Shown here: positions 58,617 to 64,000 of the stretch, in pieces
Numbering within the stretch: position 1 is the stretch's first letter
How the letters are laid out: the number at the start of each line of letters is the position of its first letter
Assembly: GCA_001644045.1 (NCBI GenBank)
Contig: LUUF01000083.1
Location: forward strand, 62,001 to 126,000
Source of the DNA: Methylomonas methanica
Lineage (GTDB): Bacteria > Pseudomonadota > Gammaproteobacteria > Methylococcales > Methylomonadaceae
DNA length: 64,000 nucleotides
Direction: 5' to 3'
Made by a program: the position numbers and the translations under genes
Notes under the pieces: model-generated
The model's database searches: none
Told to the model about the DNA's origin: nothing
Seen by the model: only the letters and a program-made list of their open reading frames with translations

Positions 58617-58707
58617 TTTTGCGACTGACCGATATTTGGGGCTAATAAATGCGACTATGGCAATTTCGCCATTACTACCCTATATTATGAGCGCTTTTTG
58701 CGACTGA
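58617..58707 (+). repeat. Direct repeats of transposon end, TnsB-site-like
   Basis: TTTTGCGACTGA occurs exactly at 58617-58628 and 58696-58707. A shorter copy, AATGCGACTA, is at 58648-58657. The three GCGACT cores start at 58621, 58651 and 58700. A hairpin ATGGC-aatttc-GCCAT lies at 58657-58672 between them. Several spaced direct repeats close to a TGT terminus are the layout of Tn7-like ends. The remainder up to 58864 has no supported gene. Confidence 0.6.
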
Positions 58708-58864
58708 GTGCGTGTAGGCGTGAAACTTCAATACAACTAATAGCTAATATGGCCACTTACTCTCGCCTCCAACATACGCAAAGCCAAGAAGCAGCCTGTA
58801 ACACCAAAGCATAAATCCAGATATACCAATTATTTACGAATTTAACCGATGAAGAGGACAATAA

Positions 58865-59194
58865 ATGTCAGGATCGAATGGAAGTAGTGGCGTTGGAAGT
58901 GGCTTTTGGGAAGGCGAAGAAAGTTGTGAAACGTTAGTAATTGACACGCAACTTAGTTCCCCCAAACCCGATGTTATTTCGGACATCTCAGTTGGTGATC
59001 AGCTGGATATTTCCACACAGCAAATTGGAACCACCACAGTAGTCGTTGCGTTATATAAGAGCAAGGTTGCAGGTGGGTTGGCATCTCCGAAAGCACGACG
59101 GCTTCTTGAATGCTTGGCGGGCGGCACTCGGTACGTTGCTAGAGTCACCGAAAAGAACGACGGTCAAATCCGTGTGCGTGTTAGTCCTCAATGA
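58865..59194 (+). CDS. Small protein with Gly/Ser-rich N-terminus, first gene of QueC-like operon
   Basis: A 109-aa protein beginning MSGSNGSSGVGSGFWEG, a flexible Gly/Ser leader, followed by a compact beta-rich domain (about 20-109): ETLVIDTQLSSPKP, SVGDQLDI, TTVVVALYKSKVAGGL, RRLLECLAGGTRYVARV. The VGD...VVVAL...VAG...G..Y.A.V pattern weakly resembles HIRAN-like DNA-end-binding domains, which is my guess only. AAGAGGA precedes the ATG, and the TGA overlaps the next ATG. Small size, free N-terminus and position before a QueC-like gene make it a candidate conjugation substrate or DNA sensor. Function unknown. Confidence 0.7.
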   Translation: MSGSNGSSGVGSGFWEGEESCETLVIDTQLSSPKPDVISDISVGDQLDISTQQIGTTTVVVALYKSKVAGGLASPKARRLLECLAGGTRYVARVTEKNDGQIRVRVSPQ

Positions 59195-60426
59195 ATTCAA
59201 CAACAGATAATGCTTACACTATCGCCGTTGTCGGCGGGGTGTATCGTGAACGCTGCATGCGACCAGCGTGGCAAGAGGTATATGGATCAGCAGGACGAGC
59301 CGCATCCGCTATGGCGGCAATGGGGATCTATGCTGAGCTATATACCTATTATGATTCCATAACTGAGCCGGTATTAATTTCTCGAGCAGCCATTGATGGG
59401 TTTAAGTTCTCAGGGGAAAGCATTCCAAAATCTACCCTTTTTGATTACGACCACGGTTTAGCCACTCCACGCATTTATAGTTTTGGTAGTCGTCAATCTT
59501 CGCTACGCCTAAAGGCTGAACAGATTTTACGCTTCGGTATGCTGGAAGGCTCTGCAGTTGTTCACAGCAAGAAAGTTGTTTACGACCCGCAGAGCCCAGC
59601 AAAGCCTGAGCCATTTCATCAAAACGGGTCCACAGCAGACGAACTTGCTCTGATTCTTAATTATAGCGAGGCCCGGATATTGAGTGGTGGCGTAAGTAGA
59701 TCAGCTGACTCAATTGCCAAATCATTGATTCTTGATGGCCATGCTCAAGTTGTAGTCATTAAATGTGGTCCACTGGGTGCTTTGGTTCATGATGGTAAGT
59801 CAACTGATCTTATTCCAGCCTATCGATCGCGAACCGTATGGAAAATAGGCTCCGGGGATAACTTTGCCGCACATTTTGCATTGCGATGGATGGAAGAAGG
59901 GAAATCGGCCTTCGAAAGTGCAGACCTTGCCTCACGAGCAACAGCATACTATTGCCAAAGCAAAGGTTTTGCCATACCAGAAATATTTGAATCATTCACA
60001 CCAGAAGCAATTGTTCCTTCTGAAGCATTCAGAAATGGGCGCCGTCCGGTTGTCTATCTGGCAGGTCCCTTCTTTACTTTGGCTCAGCTCTGGATCGTTG
60101 AGCAAGCGCGGAAAGACCTAACGGATATGGGGCTTGAAGTATTCTCTCCTTATCACGATGTGGGTTGCGGTAGTGCCGATGATGTAGTGATGCTTGACTT
60201 GGTGGGCATCGAGAAAGCGGACATTATTTTTGCCATTGGCGACGGCATGGATTCAGGAACAATTTATGAAATTGGATATTCGCGAGCCAAAGGTAAGCCT
60301 GTGATCGTTTATTGTGAGAACGAGTCGCAGGAAAACAAAAAAATGATGCAAGGTTCGTCATGCCTTATGTGCGATGACTATGTTAGTGCTATCTACCATG
60401 CGGTTTGGACTGCGTGTAGCTTATGA
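59191..60426 (+). CDS. PfkB-like kinase fused to nucleoside 2-deoxyribosyltransferase
   Basis: A 411-aa fusion. Residues about 8-280 have a PfkB/ribokinase layout: GSAGRAASAMAAMG near 32-45, VVYDPQSP near 129, and GSGDNFAAHF at 220-229, the anion hole with catalytic Asp223. Residues 286-411 are a nucleoside 2-deoxyribosyltransferase: VVYLAGPFF (287-295), DSGTIYEIGY (354-363) with catalytic Glu360, and GKPVIVYC. NDT enzymes swap or cleave deoxyribonucleoside bases; an NDT-like effector in retron Eco1 is toxic. Here kinase plus transferase could salvage or modify a nucleoside. The start overlaps the previous stop, the end overlaps the QueC-like start. Confidence 0.85.
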   Translation: MNSTTDNAYTIAVVGGVYRERCMRPAWQEVYGSAGRAASAMAAMGIYAELYTYYDSITEPVLISRAAIDGFKFSGESIPKSTLFDYDHGLATPRIYSFGSRQSSLRLKAEQILRFGMLEGSAVVHSKKVVYDPQSPAKPEPFHQNGSTADELALILNYSEARILSGGVSRSADSIAKSLILDGHAQVVVIKCGPLGALVHDGKSTDLIPAYRSRTVWKIGSGDNFAAHFALRWMEEGKSAFESADLASRATAYYCQSKGFAIPEIFESFTPEAIVPSEAFRNGRRPVVYLAGPFFTLAQLWIVEQARKDLTDMGLEVFSPYHDVGCGSADDVVMLDLVGIEKADIIFAIGDGMDSGTIYEIGYSRAKGKPVIVYCENESQENKKMMQGSSCLMCDDYVSAIYHAVWTACSL

Positions 60427-61028
60427 GGACTGCTTTATTATTATCGGGTGGAATGGATTCGTTGGCTGTTGCGTGGTGGAAACGTCCTGATCATTGCATT
60501 ACTATTGATTATGGACAGCTCGCCGCCGAGGCAGAGATAACTGCGTCAAAGGTTATCTGTGAGAAATTAGGCATTGAGCATCATGTCATCAGTGTCGATT
60601 GCAGGTCTATGGGCTCGGGAGATATGGCAGGTACACCTCCAGATGGATATGCTCCTGCAAGCGATTGGTGGCCCTATCGAAATCAAATGTTGCTAACCTT
60701 TGCCGCCATGAAAGCACTACCCTTGGGTGTCAAGGCGATTTGGATTGGTTCTGTAAAATCCGATAAGTCCCATCAAGATGGCACTATCCAATTTCTGGAG
60801 AGCATGAACGCCTTACTCTCTCTCCAAGAAGGAGGCATGACAGTAAGCGCCCCTGCTATTGACATGACTACTCCCCAATTGATTCGACACGCAGGCGTTC
60901 CTAAAAATATTCTAGGATGGGCACACAGCTGTCATAAAGCAAACGTTGCGTGTGCAAACTGTCGCGGATGTAATAAGTATTTTGAGGTGCTTTATGAGCT
61001 CGATGGCGGAATGGACAGACCTGGGTAA
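60423..61028 (+). CDS. QueC-like 7-cyano-7-deazaguanine synthase homologue
   Basis: A 201-aa PP-loop ATPase. SGGMDS (8-13) is the PP-loop, PYRNQML near 84-90 the QueC-type RN motif, and Cys170, Cys177, Cys180 and Cys183 (SCHKANVACANCRGC) the zinc site. QueC converts 7-carboxy-7-deazaguanine to preQ0. No queD, queE or folE partner is seen nearby, which suggests it is not for queuosine synthesis. QueC-like proteins of type IV CBASS (Cap9) are reported to act in protein deazaguanylation. Coupled on both sides in the operon. Confidence 0.9.
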   Translation: MRTALLLSGGMDSLAVAWWKRPDHCITIDYGQLAAEAEITASKVICEKLGIEHHVISVDCRSMGSGDMAGTPPDGYAPASDWWPYRNQMLLTFAAMKALPLGVKAIWIGSVKSDKSHQDGTIQFLESMNALLSLQEGGMTVSAPAIDMTTPQLIRHAGVPKNILGWAHSCHKANVACANCRGCNKYFEVLYELDGGMDRPG

Positions 61029-61689
61029 TCCTTTTCCGCGTCTAGTCCCGAATTGCTATACGCCTATCACTTGGCCCAAAGGAAACGTCATTCGATTTCC
61101 ACTCACAGTTACAACTGAGGAAAGACAAGAATCTGTAATCAATATACTGCTCCGTCGTCGCACCCGACGCCATTTTTCTAATATTGGAATGGATTCGCTC
61201 GGTTCTTTACTTTGGATATCTTGTCGTACTCAAGAATTAGGCAGTGGCCACTTAGGGTTTCCTTTGTCGCGGCGCCCATGTCCATCAGGCGGCGCGATTC
61301 ATCCCATCCACCTTCTTGTACTACTACCCCAAGAAAACTGTTGGTACCGTTACGATCCTATGGAGCATGGGCTGCACGAAACACCCAGTAACCTAGATGC
61401 AACAATAGTGAAGAGTTCGATGCAGAACATAGTAACTGCGCCATCAGCGACATTGCTCCTCCTTGCCGCAGAACCAGGCATGACGGCGGCAAAATATGAA
61501 GCCTCTGCAAGTTTGATATGGAGAGACGCCGGCGTAATGCTTGGGATATTAGCCATCGCTGCAGAAGCTCTTAATCTCAGTTTTTGTCCTTTGGGAGTGA
61601 CTGGCGAACCTTGGGTGAGTCAACTACTCGAACAACCGGGTTTGTTTGGTGTCGGTGGTGCCTTTGTTGGAACGACTCCGCCCCCTTGA
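60994..61689 (+). CDS. SagB/ThcOx-like nitroreductase-fold dehydrogenase
   Basis: A 231-aa FMN enzyme of the nitroreductase superfamily. I start it at 60994, where GAGG gives a good ribosome-binding site, inside the QueC-like gene (35-bp overlap). RRRTRRHFSN near 54-63 is the FMN-phosphate site; RRPCPSGGAIHP (93-104) is the SagB/ThcOx signature (PSGGAxxP); DAGVMLGILAIAAEALNLSFC is the nitroreductase helix. SagB enzymes oxidise azolines to azoles in thiazole/oxazole-modified peptides. No cyclodehydratase (YcaO) is visible, so another substrate is likely. Its end overlaps the converging OGG gene by 66 bp. Confidence 0.8.
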   Translation: MSSMAEWTDLGNPFPRLVPNCYTPITWPKGNVIRFPLTVTTEERQESVINILLRRRTRRHFSNIGMDSLGSLLWISCRTQELGSGHLGFPLSRRPCPSGGAIHPIHLLVLLPQENCWYRYDPMEHGLHETPSNLDATIVKSSMQNIVTAPSATLLLLAAEPGMTAAKYEASASLIWRDAGVMLGILAIAAEALNLSFCPLGVTGEPWVSQLLEQPGLFGVGGAFVGTTPPP

Positions 61690-62493
61690 TGAACCAGCCG
61701 CAAGAACCTCAGACGAGGAGCGGGGGCAAACACCAGCTAAACTCCCTCCCATCAATTGAGTAACGGTCCGAGGAGCTGACATCATTTCAAACCAAATAAT
61801 TGCATCCAACTCCGAAGGACGCGTGCCGATAGCGTCGGCAAAACGTATAAACTGTTCCTCTAGTTCTAAATAGTTTTTCTCTACCGTTAGATTTTCATCA
61901 AAGAACTTCGCAAGCGCACCCGCCCGCAAAACGTGGATATCCAATATGGCAACATCGTCAGCGTCTAACCAATTACGAGCCACCCATGAAGCTGTTTTTA
62001 GTCCAATGCCTGGCAATTGGATGAGCCATTGGCGTAATGCCTTTCCACTGTCTAGTGGTGGAGTTTCTGCAGACAAACGGGATAATGCTGTACTCAAATA
62101 GCGGGCTTTCTGTTTCGCAAAGCGGTATCGAATCTGACGTCCATCGATTTCAAGCGGATGGGAAAGTACATCAAATATCTCTGATTCGGTTGGCGTGTTA
62201 GCCAATATCCCAAGTGCTTGGAGTCTTTGAAACGCGGCAAGGCCGACACTAGCCGGAATTCCGTGTCCGCCCAAAAGACAGGCGCCCACCTCCTCGGCAA
62301 GTGTACTTCCTAATCGGTGTCGCGGAGATATTCCTATGATTCGGCGTGCCATGACCTGGTAAGTCCAATATGCTGGAGTAGGAAACGCTTCAATTGGTCC
62401 CCAAGGAATTCCAGGCAGCACAAAGGTGTCGGAAGACGGCAGTTCGATTTGCACTACGGCAGCACCTGTGAAAACTGCAGCGGACTGCCTCAT
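61624..62493 (-). CDS. OGG-like HhH-GPD DNA glycosylase/lyase
   Basis: A 289-aa protein of the HhH-GPD superfamily. LPGIGLKTASW (160-170) is the helix-hairpin-helix, and AILDIHVLRAG (182-192) the GPD segment. Lys166 and Asp185 are 19 residues apart, like Lys249 and Asp268 of human OGG1, so base excision plus lyase activity is plausible. The ATG overlaps the stop of the upstream methyltransferase (ATGA). The extra C-terminal stretch is Ser/Arg-rich. In type IV CBASS an OGG-like gene occurs with QueC-like genes. Substrate unknown. Confidence 0.85.
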   Translation of the reverse strand: MRQSAAVFTGAAVVQIELPSSDTFVLPGIPWGPIEAFPTPAYWTYQVMARRIIGISPRHRLGSTLAEEVGACLLGGHGIPASVGLAAFQRLQALGILANTPTESEIFDVLSHPLEIDGRQIRYRFAKQKARYLSTALSRLSAETPPLDSGKALRQWLIQLPGIGLKTASWVARNWLDADDVAILDIHVLRAGALAKFFDENLTVEKNYLELEEQFIRFADAIGTRPSELDAIIWFEMMSAPRTVTQLMGGSLAGVCPRSSSEVLAAGSSRGRSRSNKGTTDTKQTRLFE

Positions 62494-63173
62494 GAGTGTC
62501 TTGACTCAGTTAAGTACTGTGCATTGAGTGCACGCAAAACGTGTTCTCGCTCAACAGGTTCCATACGGTCAAACCGATCAAACAAACGCTGATGGCGGCG
62601 CTTGTTCGTCTGCCGATCTCGATATGTCTCTCCAAAATATGAAGCGTCATGAAGCATGGTTGGGGGAGGAAAATTCATCCAGACACACTCTGTACGAACA
62701 TCTACATGTGTCTTATACAAAAATGTCGCCTTTCGCCAATTCCTTAGACGCACCTCATACATCGGGTTGTCGTAACCCGAAAGCATTACCATGCAAGGCA
62801 AAGTGATCAGGACATCCAACAACCTGCAGTGATCTTTATACGAATATTCATGCCGATAAATTTTCGAATTTCTTCGGGATTCGGGTAAATATGGGGGATC
62901 GGCGTAAATTAATTCGCCCCCTTGGTAATCATACGTTTCAAGGAAAGAAACGGCGTCACCGTGTATCAGAGTGCAATAGTCCGGATATCGTTGTTGCCAA
63001 GTTGCAATGACCGCCTCATCTGCATCAATACCAAAATTGATTTGAGCGGCCCTTTTGTTTCTTAGCACAGCTCCACCACCTAGGTGAGATTCAATATAGG
63101 TTGTGTGAGCCGGCATTAGATTAATTAGCCGATGGTAGCATTTGCCTTTTCCGCCTGGATATATCATGCACAA
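62490..63173 (-). CDS. D12-class DNA adenine N6-methyltransferase
   Basis: A 227-aa Dam-type enzyme. YPGGKGK near 5-11 and YIESHLGGGAVL near 26-37 form the SAM-binding motif; ADPPYL with DPPY at 92-95 is the catalytic motif. The rest is shorter than Dam's usual 270 residues, so the target-recognition part is small. It is coupled to the OGG-like gene by ATGA and transcribed divergently from the small gene at 63224. No restriction endonuclease is visible. It may mark DNA for its partner or protect it from the glycosylase. Confidence 0.9.
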   Translation of the reverse strand: MCMIYPGGKGKCYHRLINLMPAHTTYIESHLGGGAVLRNKRAAQINFGIDADEAVIATWQQRYPDYCTLIHGDAVSFLETYDYQGGELIYADPPYLPESRRNSKIYRHEYSYKDHCRLLDVLITLPCMVMLSGYDNPMYEVRLRNWRKATFLYKTHVDVRTECVWMNFPPPTMLHDASYFGETYRDRQTNKRRHQRLFDRFDRMEPVEREHVLRALNAQYLTESRHS

Positions 63174-63682: not shown

Positions 63683-64000
63683 TTAGAAAACTTTAAACTG
63701 TGGTCCGCAATAAACACCAAGTGTCAATGCGTCATAAGAATTAAAAAAGGTTTCAAAATAAAAGCGATGTTGACCTCCATTGTCATCAGACAAAATTAGC
63801 TCAGCTTCGCCTAAAGAACCTCCTTTCTGACCGCCACAATAACTTGAAACCGCTTCAAATAACTCAACTTCGGGCAATTTCGAAAAGCGTGCAGCGAAAG
63901 CCGGGGATTGGATAAAGTATCGGCAGGGTCTATCAACATCGAAAACCGGACGTCGAGAAATATGGGGATGACAGGAAATCAGGCCAACTAGCGGCTGCTC
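63683..64000 (-). CDS. C-terminal part of an unknown protein, cut by window edge
   Basis: The frame is open from the stop (TAA at 63683-63685) back to the window edge, giving 105 residues with no stop. A TTG at 63877 is an unlikely start, since the frame continues above it with normal-looking residues. Visible pieces are HPHISRRPVFDVD, LPEVELFEAVSSYCGG, GSLGEAELILSDDNGGQHRFYF and LGVYCGPQFKVF. No family is recognised. It reads toward the methyltransferase but is separated by the gene at 63224 on the other strand. Confidence 0.55.
   Translation of the reverse strand, partial: EQPLVGLISCHPHISRRPVFDVDRPCRYFIQSPAFAARFSKLPEVELFEAVSSYCGGQKGGSLGEAELILSDDNGGQHRFYFETFFNSYDALTLGVYCGPQFKVF

Follow-up and report, generated by a model that had tools for sequence, protein, structure and literature searches.

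A stretch of 64,000 nucleotides from Methylomonas methanica (contig LUUF01000083.1, positions 62,001 to 126,000; hereafter the window) carries an operon for a small protein, a fusion of PfkB and nucleoside 2-deoxyribosyltransferase (NDT) domains, a short QueC-like enzyme and a SagB-like oxidoreductase, next to genes for an OGG-like DNA glycosylase and a D12-class methyltransferase (Table 1). Five or six such genes, in constant order, are shared by many unrelated microbes, haloarchaea as well as bacteria, and the minimal unit is the trio of small protein, PfkB-NDT and QueC-like enzyme. We propose that they form a third QueC-family immune system, in which the QueC-like ligase modifies the N-terminus of the small protein, and give this statement as a whole a probability of roughly 0.55. 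A defence role for the operon is very likely, and modification of the small-protein N-terminus by the QueC-like enzyme is probable; that the attached base is of the deazaguanine type is suggested only tentatively. In the accessible literature, such tagging of proteins with a nucleobase is shown for the type IV cyclic-oligonucleotide-based anti-phage signalling system (CBASS) and proposed, with the reaction not reconstituted, for Qat.

Distribution and gene order

Relatives were collected with a profile of 18 aligned QueC-like proteins, which found 202 relatives in genome contigs; the best 80 of these were taken and 79 loci kept, so that closer relatives are favoured in the set. The same profile yielded 8 loci in viral contigs. 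Eleven loci (L001-L009, L025 and L026) were removed as copies before clustering, and 110 QueC-like instances were grouped into 86 clusters at 90% identity. One locus, L074, contributes three counts to these, from an intact copy and from two fragments of a broken one. Partner genes were detected with hidden Markov models built from seed proteins. PfkB-NDT accompanied the QueC-like gene in 84 of the 86 clusters, the small protein in 80, OGG in 76 and SagB in 70, and the sequence fetched for 17 clusters also included a dGTPase gene, which in L017 overlaps the gene for the QueC-like enzyme. The order small protein, PfkB-NDT, QueC-like, SagB-like recurs across genomes, and the co-occurrence that the initial annotation proposed to count is strong. 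The methyltransferase, which had been listed among the parts, occurs in just 34 of the 86 clusters and was ruled out as a core component, while a fusion of TIR and tRNA-guanine transglycosylase (TGT) domains is present in two.

The gaps in this pattern are few. Both clusters lacking NDT under the distance rule are of a TIR type (L022 and L030) and have an NDT further away; the six clusters without the small protein comprise these two loci, two pieces of L074, and L076 and L102, which are cut by contig ends. The SagB-like gene was not found in 16 clusters, some of them cut by contig ends, and its usual slot holds a dGTPase in L017 and an Mrr-type nuclease in L018. The OGG gene lies downstream on the opposite strand in 56 cases and upstream on the same strand in 20. 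Pairwise distances of the partner genes correlated with those of the QueC-like gene (r 0.68-0.84 over 30-75 loci, with eight loci omitted and without a null model).

The system is sparse and widely scattered. Among 398 genomes from the phylum, its own included, the fusion was found in 7, and it is matched in 73 of 72,556 plasmid records, 37 of which cover at least 80%; in phage records, the NDT part alone was matched in 13 of 50,697, none covering 80%. Operon DNA matched 18 of 5426 E. coli genomes, a lower bound with about one third of the query covered, and the three E. coli loci that were opened contain all six genes in full order plus a dGTPase gene downstream. In E. coli strain H6 the operon spans L010:10802-14984. 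Other hosts include haloarchaea (L020, L021), a Synechocystis plasmid (L016), a metagenome-assembled genome of Sphaerochaeta (L069), Coraliomargarita (L085), and Hymenobacter, Neolewinella and Leeuwenhoekiella (L076, L102, L108).

The small protein

The N-terminus of the small protein is conserved. Two rules of start assignment that took no account of the motif gave M[ST]G, MGG or MSSG as the beginning of 74 of 81 small proteins (first ATG upstream of the core) and of 75 of 80 (strongest Shine-Dalgarno sequence). With any in-frame start permitted, a choice that selects for the motif, 80 of 81 open reading frames (ORFs) do so (72 MSG, 3 MTG, 4 MGG, 1 MSS), the sole exception (L084) being a short ORF with an undetermined residue. 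Comparison proteins have such starts in 1 of 133 and 2 of 133 cases. The window protein reads MSGS, and the MGGS start of CBASS partners is restricted to L115 and L117, two of the four MGG relatives; the two haloarchaea have MGGG. The tail that separates motif and core was measured in 78 proteins; its length ranges from 16 to 44 residues, with Gly averaging 35% and Ser 18%, while the motif is maintained. In 71 aligned small proteins M1, C21, G70 and C83 are invariant, and S2 and G3 are conserved at 90% or more.

This motif resembles the partner N-termini of the two known QueC-family immune systems. In the accessible part of PMC13279940, these are the MGGS of the CD-NTase, in which Gly2 is modified, and the MGTS of QatB, in which a G2D substitution abolishes defence. 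The resemblance supports the earlier suggestion that the small protein receives an altered base.

The core resembles HIRAN. Single-sequence comparisons with HIRAN were weak (E 0.0045 and 0.25), and therefore a deeper set was assembled from 25 of the 26 HIRAN loci fetched (L189 omitted). Aligned to this profile with hhalign, the core scored 37.9 over 67 columns (pairwise E 1.3e-6), while 100 column shuffles did not exceed 13.9, the reversed profile scored 13.1, and the highest score for windows drawn from five unrelated families was 16.8. A Pfam scan of the 71 small proteins at E 0.1 matched 13 families, HIRAN not among them. These matches were scattered and weak (PUA_4 in 3 of 71, best 0.022) and provided no Pfam identity; likewise, no PDB match was obtained. 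By eye, the haloarchaeal small proteins (L020:6363-6998; L021:5910-6998) contain two core copies each, and in that of L021 a long acidic linker follows the MGGG start.

The QueC-like enzyme

The window enzyme contains the motifs SGGMDS, YGQ, WWPYRN, HxDG and CH(x)5CxxCxGCxK, the last in the form CHKANVACANCRGCNK. Its Cys170, 177, 180 and 183 are conserved in all 18 aligned QueC-like proteins, in which RN and SGGxDS are also retained, and Y30, G31, Q32 and E38 are invariant, giving the spacing YGQ(x)5E. Against the PDB, the QueC-like profile found Cap9 of type IV CBASS as nearest relative (5.1e-15), followed by QueC (3.4e-14 and 5.8e-11). At the base site, H117-x-D119-G aligns with Tyr115-x-Asp117-Cys of Cap9 and with Tyr-Pro-Asp-Cys of QueC, and Asp119, the counterpart of Cap9 Asp117, is invariant (18/18). 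According to the part of PMC13279940 available, Asp117 of Cap9 reads the guanine edge and Tyr115 stacks on the base, whereas two Thr stand at this site in QatC. The window enzyme can thus be regarded as intermediate, since the Asp is retained and the Tyr is changed.

The QueC-like protein and the fusion fit, by motif and by neighbour, "Cluster 4" of PF06508, a pairing described in July 2026 and interpreted as purine salvage (PMC13329287, section 8). Both the SGGxDS loop and the CH(x)5CxxCxGCxK signature of that cluster are present in the window protein, although the printed motif YGQ(x)6E differs by one residue in spacing; the printed figure for PfkB-NDT neighbours is about 89%, as compared with 84 of the 86 clusters and the window here. 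Section 8 of that paper names no small protein, SagB, OGG or island setting. The claim that the system is new has to be qualified, as the QueC-like/PfkB-NDT pair is already published. Searches of open-licence PMC text, supplements aside, found no description of the operon beyond Cluster 4, and an earlier description elsewhere is possible; a term search of the main text of DefensePredictor (PMC13092281) found QueC, PfkB and HIRAN unmentioned.

Partner enzymes

The active-site residues singled out by the initial annotation (Asp223 and Glu360 of the fusion, Cys170-183 of the QueC-like protein and Lys166 of OGG) proved to be conserved in the alignments. PfkB Asp223 and NDT Glu360 are each kept in 83 of 88 aligned fusions, with four of the five and three of the five exceptions, respectively, being gaps. 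OGG Lys166 is kept in 75 of 76 proteins, the exception being a gap in a split-gene piece (L107). In the conservation alignment these three residues are numbered 213, 350 and 164. The closest solved NDT to the fusion is 6evs (1.3e-9), and the OGG-like protein has the helix-hairpin-helix (HhH) fold with catalytic Lys and Asp that is expected of an OGG-type glycosylase, an activity that is predicted here. No OGG model of PADLOC matched it, the best match being DrmA (0.013). Joint action of the OGG-like protein and the methyltransferase on DNA, as suggested by the initial annotation, is thus putative.

At L116:8591-10143, a second small protein and a second PfkB-NDT directly follow the QueC-like gene of the first set, and this second fusion has both catalytic residues altered (Asp to Asn, Glu to Ala). 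At L065:5791-8004, the PfkB-NDT gene of Vreelandella is broken into two ORFs about 1 kb apart.

Genomic setting

The ORF listing confirmed the six ORFs at 58865-63173, with the positions and overlaps given for them originally. The plus-strand genes overlap by 4, 4 and 35 bp in order; the convergent ends of the SagB-like and OGG-like genes share 66 bp, and the OGG-like and methyltransferase genes overlap by 4 bp. In the NCBIfam scan of window proteins, a further score of 76.8 bits lay under its cut-off of 150.3.

Downstream, the capP-like, helix-turn-helix (HTH) and BilABCD genes identify the setting as a defence island (Table 1); two genes without a PADLOC match lie between the capP-like/HTH genes and BilABCD. 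An extension past position 64,000 into a known queuosine, CBASS or RiPP (ribosomally synthesised and post-translationally modified peptide) operon, which had been considered as another way to account for these parts, does not occur in the stretch read. Upstream, the operon follows a truncated YifB/ComM gene. The only Mg_chelatase_C match of the genome sits on another contig (G000:C14:38716-38991), and the remainder of ComM was not found by a motif search that followed contig C84 from the window as far as its end. The TGCGACT repeats at this edge, of which another copy is located 10.5 kb further (L002:13166), are possibly a transposon end.

Flanking proteins of the relatives were compared with controls from host genomes. 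The 133 flanking proteins matched 146 PADLOC models at 1e-15, a count of models and not of proteins because one protein may match several, and the 133 control proteins matched 3. The flank sample was drawn from 182 ORFs (the first 150, less 17 removed mostly for length), and the controls comprised 133 of the 155 ORFs in 40 regions, one per host genome, that lie about 20-30 kb from queC or queD hits. Among the flank matches listed are CBASS cyclases, HamA, JetD, DruM, AbiLi, restriction-modification, TniQ and dGTPase. Annotated neighbours include multiubiquitin/ThiF/DUF6527 genes on two plasmids, TIR proteins, and a pair of ATP-dependent nuclease and UvrD helicase in one E. coli and one Citrobacter locus, which we take to be Gabija-like. 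Distribution and flanks together support a recurrent, mobile, defence-island-associated system without a CD-NTase, as had been envisaged.

Table 1. Features of the window, its downstream extension and the TIR-type relatives. Values after model names are E-values unless given in bits.
Feature	Position	Strand	Basis or remark
YifB/ComM gene, N-terminal half, 283 aa	57754..58605	+	cut off just upstream of operon
Three TGCGACT repeats (58620, 58650, 58699)	58620..58720	+	edge of insertion
Small protein, 109 aa	58865..59194	+	ORF; no family match in Pfam/NCBIfam; MSGS N-terminus, Gly/Ser-rich tail residues 1-20, HIRAN-like core ~residues 21-108; proposed acceptor of QueC-like reaction
PfkB/NDT fusion, 411 aa	59191..60426	+	Pfam Nuc_deoxyrib_tr 7.6e-16, PfkB 2.4e-08
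NDT domain of fusion	~60031-60423	+	
QueC-like predicted ATP-dependent ligase, 201 aa, PF06508 "Cluster 4" type	60423..61028	+	Pfam QueC 9.5e-24; PADLOC QueC 1.3e-16; alignment; PDB matches
SagB-like/nitroreductase-fold oxidoreductase, 231 aa from ATG 60994	60994..61689	+	Pfam Nitroreductase 4.3e-06; NCBIfam SagB TIGR03605 3.8e-17, 62.3 bits, under cut-off 78.4; longest ORF begins at TTG 60946
OGG-like HhH DNA glycosylase, 289 aa, Lys166/Asp185	61624..62493	-	Pfam Ogg-HhH 1.7e-14; PDB; activity predicted
D12-class DNA adenine methyltransferase, 227 aa	62490..63173	-	Pfam MethyltransfD12 7.3e-09; PADLOC MTase_II 2.7e-25; accessory
capP-like protease gene (7e-13) and HTH gene	L002:7683-9098 = window scale 63683-65098		between operon and BilABCD
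Complete BilABCD (ISG15-like conjugation)	L002:10105-13039 = window scale 66105-69039		~3 kb past methyltransferase gene
TIR-type relatives	L022:6995-11357; L030:5772-10260; L125:4676-9097; L126:4189-8590; L127:7869-10686		

TIR-type relatives

Four loci (L022, L030, L125 and L126) combine a divergent PfkB-NDT-like protein with a TIR-TGT fusion, OGG, a QueC-like protein and an MGGG-tailed TIR protein; a fifth, L127, has TGT, OGG, QueC-like and TIR genes, the TGT not being fused and NDT not being detected. MGGG opens the gene or ORF of the TIR protein in L022 and L127, while further in-frame ATGs lie upstream of it in L030, L125 and L126. The TGT part of L022 matches PADLOC TGT at 1.8e-22, and its nearest PDB entry is Cap10 (9ntn, 6e-08). 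L022 and L030 carry changes at motif residues of the NDT active site. In the class searched, the TIR-TGT query found a match in 4 of 385 genomes, one of them without the TIR part. These loci lend support to the proposal by linking the pairing of PfkB-NDT and QueC with an N-terminal glycine and with genes of the Cap10-like and OGG types, and are possibly a separate, NDG-like immune system. Their TIR protein, ThsB-like in L022, is reminiscent of Thoeris, a likeness confined to these five loci; in contrast to Thoeris, the TIR protein here is MGGG-tailed and stands beside QueC-like, OGG and TGT-like genes, and nothing Thoeris-like is found in the window.

Proposed mechanism and base supply

From the operon, the motif, the HIRAN-like core, the conserved catalytic residues and the island setting we infer an anti-phage role and a possible course of the chemistry. 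The QueC-like enzyme, using ATP, would activate the carboxylate of 7-carboxy-7-deazaguanine (CDG) or of a related guanine-like heterocycle, and the activated base would be joined to the N-terminal amine of the small protein, mostly that of Ser2 after Met removal and in a few proteins that of Gly2. PfkB-NDT may occupy the role of Cap10, either handling or binding the tagged base or providing the base from the deoxynucleoside pool. The tagged HIRAN-like core could then sense, or be recruited to, infection-related DNA or another ligand, with the OGG-like glycosylase, the SagB-like oxidoreductase, the dGTPase and the Mrr nuclease as putative swappable accessory or effector parts. The D12 methyltransferase, where present, perhaps protects self DNA.

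Supply of the base was assessed in 54 host genomes. QueD was detected in 46 and QueC of canonical strength (E <=1e-50) in 41. QueE, searched in 17 of the genomes, was found in 8, a count which may be too low because the model missed QueE in a Thermotoga control in which QueD and QueC were found; TGT was present in 16 of the 17, the exception being G416. In a Roseivivax plasmid (L015:10528-11067), a VUT family protein annotated for queuosine salvage is encoded 0.7 kb downstream of the operon and might be a base supply.

Several observations weigh against the proposed tagging system. In five of the 54 genomes (G071, G194, G416, G433 and G444), QueD, canonical QueC and QueE were not found, apart from one extra QueC trace at 7.8e-6 in G444 beyond its short QueC-like copies; G071 is a single 6.3-Mb contig, and completeness is 100% for G071 and G194, the only two of the five with a known value. 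Host-made CDG is therefore doubtful as a universal substrate and was not upheld as such: in these genomes either the base is salvaged, or the substrate is different, or the system is idle. Of the original suggestion that a deazaguanine-type or otherwise altered base is made or salvaged, the altered base is supported, and host-made deazaguanine is not required. Furthermore, the Tyr that stacks on CDG is replaced by an invariant His117, and the residue after Met is mostly Ser, as opposed to the Gly modified in type IV CBASS. In L022, the QueC-like protein has canonical QueC (3e-17) as a closer match than Cap9 (1.3e-13). Fork binding by HLTF needs the Asn pair of the HIRAN Asn/Asp loop, according to the accessible text of PMC4666394, and in an alignment by eye this loop was not conserved in the aligned small proteins, making DNA binding by them putative. 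The control regions, being close to queC/queD, perhaps contain fewer defence and more housekeeping genes than average, and a metabolic interpretation of the QueC-like/NDT pair has been published (PMC13329287, section 8).

Comparison with known systems

OGG is an ancillary protein of type IV CBASS, and the operon shares with that system an OGG-family gene, a short QueC-like ligase, nearest by profile to Cap9 among solved relatives, and a partner with an N-terminal Gly/Ser motif plus tail. The partner there is a CD-NTase whose N-terminus undergoes NDG modification, whereas here it is a HIRAN-like protein beginning MSGS; PfkB-NDT stands in place of the TGT-like Cap10, a SagB-like gene is additional, and the base-site Tyr of Cap9 is a His. 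Neither CD-NTase nor TGT-like Cap10 was matched among the six window proteins in Pfam, PADLOC and NCBIfam scans. Similarly, the QueC-family enzyme of qatABCD adjoins a partner whose N-terminus (MGTS) is conserved and whose tail is disordered. However, QatC is about 400 amino acids long, with N- and C-terminal extensions that the window enzyme (201 amino acids) lacks, and has lost the base-reading Asp that the window enzyme keeps; QatA (KAP ATPase) and QatD (TatD nuclease) were not found among the window ORFs with Pfam, and QatB is alpha-helical (accessible part of PMC13279940), in contrast to the HIRAN-like window partner. Membership tests excluded assignment to CBASS, Qat, canonical queuosine synthesis and RiPP clusters alike.

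Alternative explanations

The metabolic interpretation, in which the QueC-like enzyme and PfkB-NDT work as a pair in the salvage of purines or deoxynucleosides and the remaining genes are mere neighbours, draws on intact active-site residues and on the roughly 89% pairing from which section 8 of PMC13329287 infers purine salvage. It is difficult to reconcile with the co-occurrence of five genes and not two, with the sparse occurrence (7/398 phylum genomes; DNA in 18/5426 E. coli genomes), with locations on plasmids and in defence-rich islands, with a partner that has a conserved N-terminal motif and no known enzyme family, and with relatives carrying TIR, and we consider it unlikely. Nucleotide depletion would place the same enzymes in defence: PfkB-NDT, with the dGTPase where present, would destroy deoxyguanosine or other nucleotides on infection, with a purely regulatory part for the QueC-like enzyme and the small protein. 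Conserved kinase and NDT catalytic residues, the dGTPase in 17 of the 86 clusters with its overlap in L017, and the occurrence of NDT-like proteins in retrons (accessible part of PMC12548924) are consistent with this, but the N-terminal motif, SagB and OGG are left unexplained, and the L022 and L030 operons persist despite altered NDT active-site residues; we grant this explanation a small chance. A different product is also conceivable, if improbable, namely a protein-deoxynucleotide conjugate, for which the QueC-like enzyme would add a deazaguanine-type base to the N-terminus of the small protein, NDT the deoxyribose and PfkB a phosphate. The deoxyribose would then come from a deoxynucleoside, with dG supplied by the dGTPase where present, and the DNA-like "bait" or primer-like end would mark or block phage DNA, OGG being able to cut the same glycosidic bond.

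The families acting on DNA, with OGG in 76 and the D12 methyltransferase in 34 of 86 clusters, could instead point to DNA modification, NDT and kinase making an unusual deoxynucleotide that OGG exchanges or removes while the methyltransferase marks self. No transglycosylase or polymerase was matched among the six proteins scanned, this scheme has no role for the small protein, and the methyltransferase was not found in most clusters, all of which make it very unlikely. SagB works with YcaO, and the SagB-like match, together with the Gly/Ser-rich N-terminal tail, invites a reading as a RiPP cluster in which the SagB-like enzyme would process the small protein as a precursor peptide for export. 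The SagB-like protein falls short of the TIGR03605 cut-off, and no YcaO, protease or exporter was matched among the six proteins; the core of the partner is conserved and of a known fold type, and the clusters in which the SagB-like gene was not found add to this, so that a RiPP cluster is highly improbable.

Implications

If the proposed tagging of the small protein is correct, nucleobase tagging would comprise a third, widespread system with another partner fold and another base-handling enzyme, which would point to a general bacterial immune strategy. A family published as purine salvage would then be reassigned, and the TIR-type relatives would connect the proposed chemistry to Thoeris-like proteins. 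The hypothesis is testable, as E. coli naturally harbours relatives of the operon.

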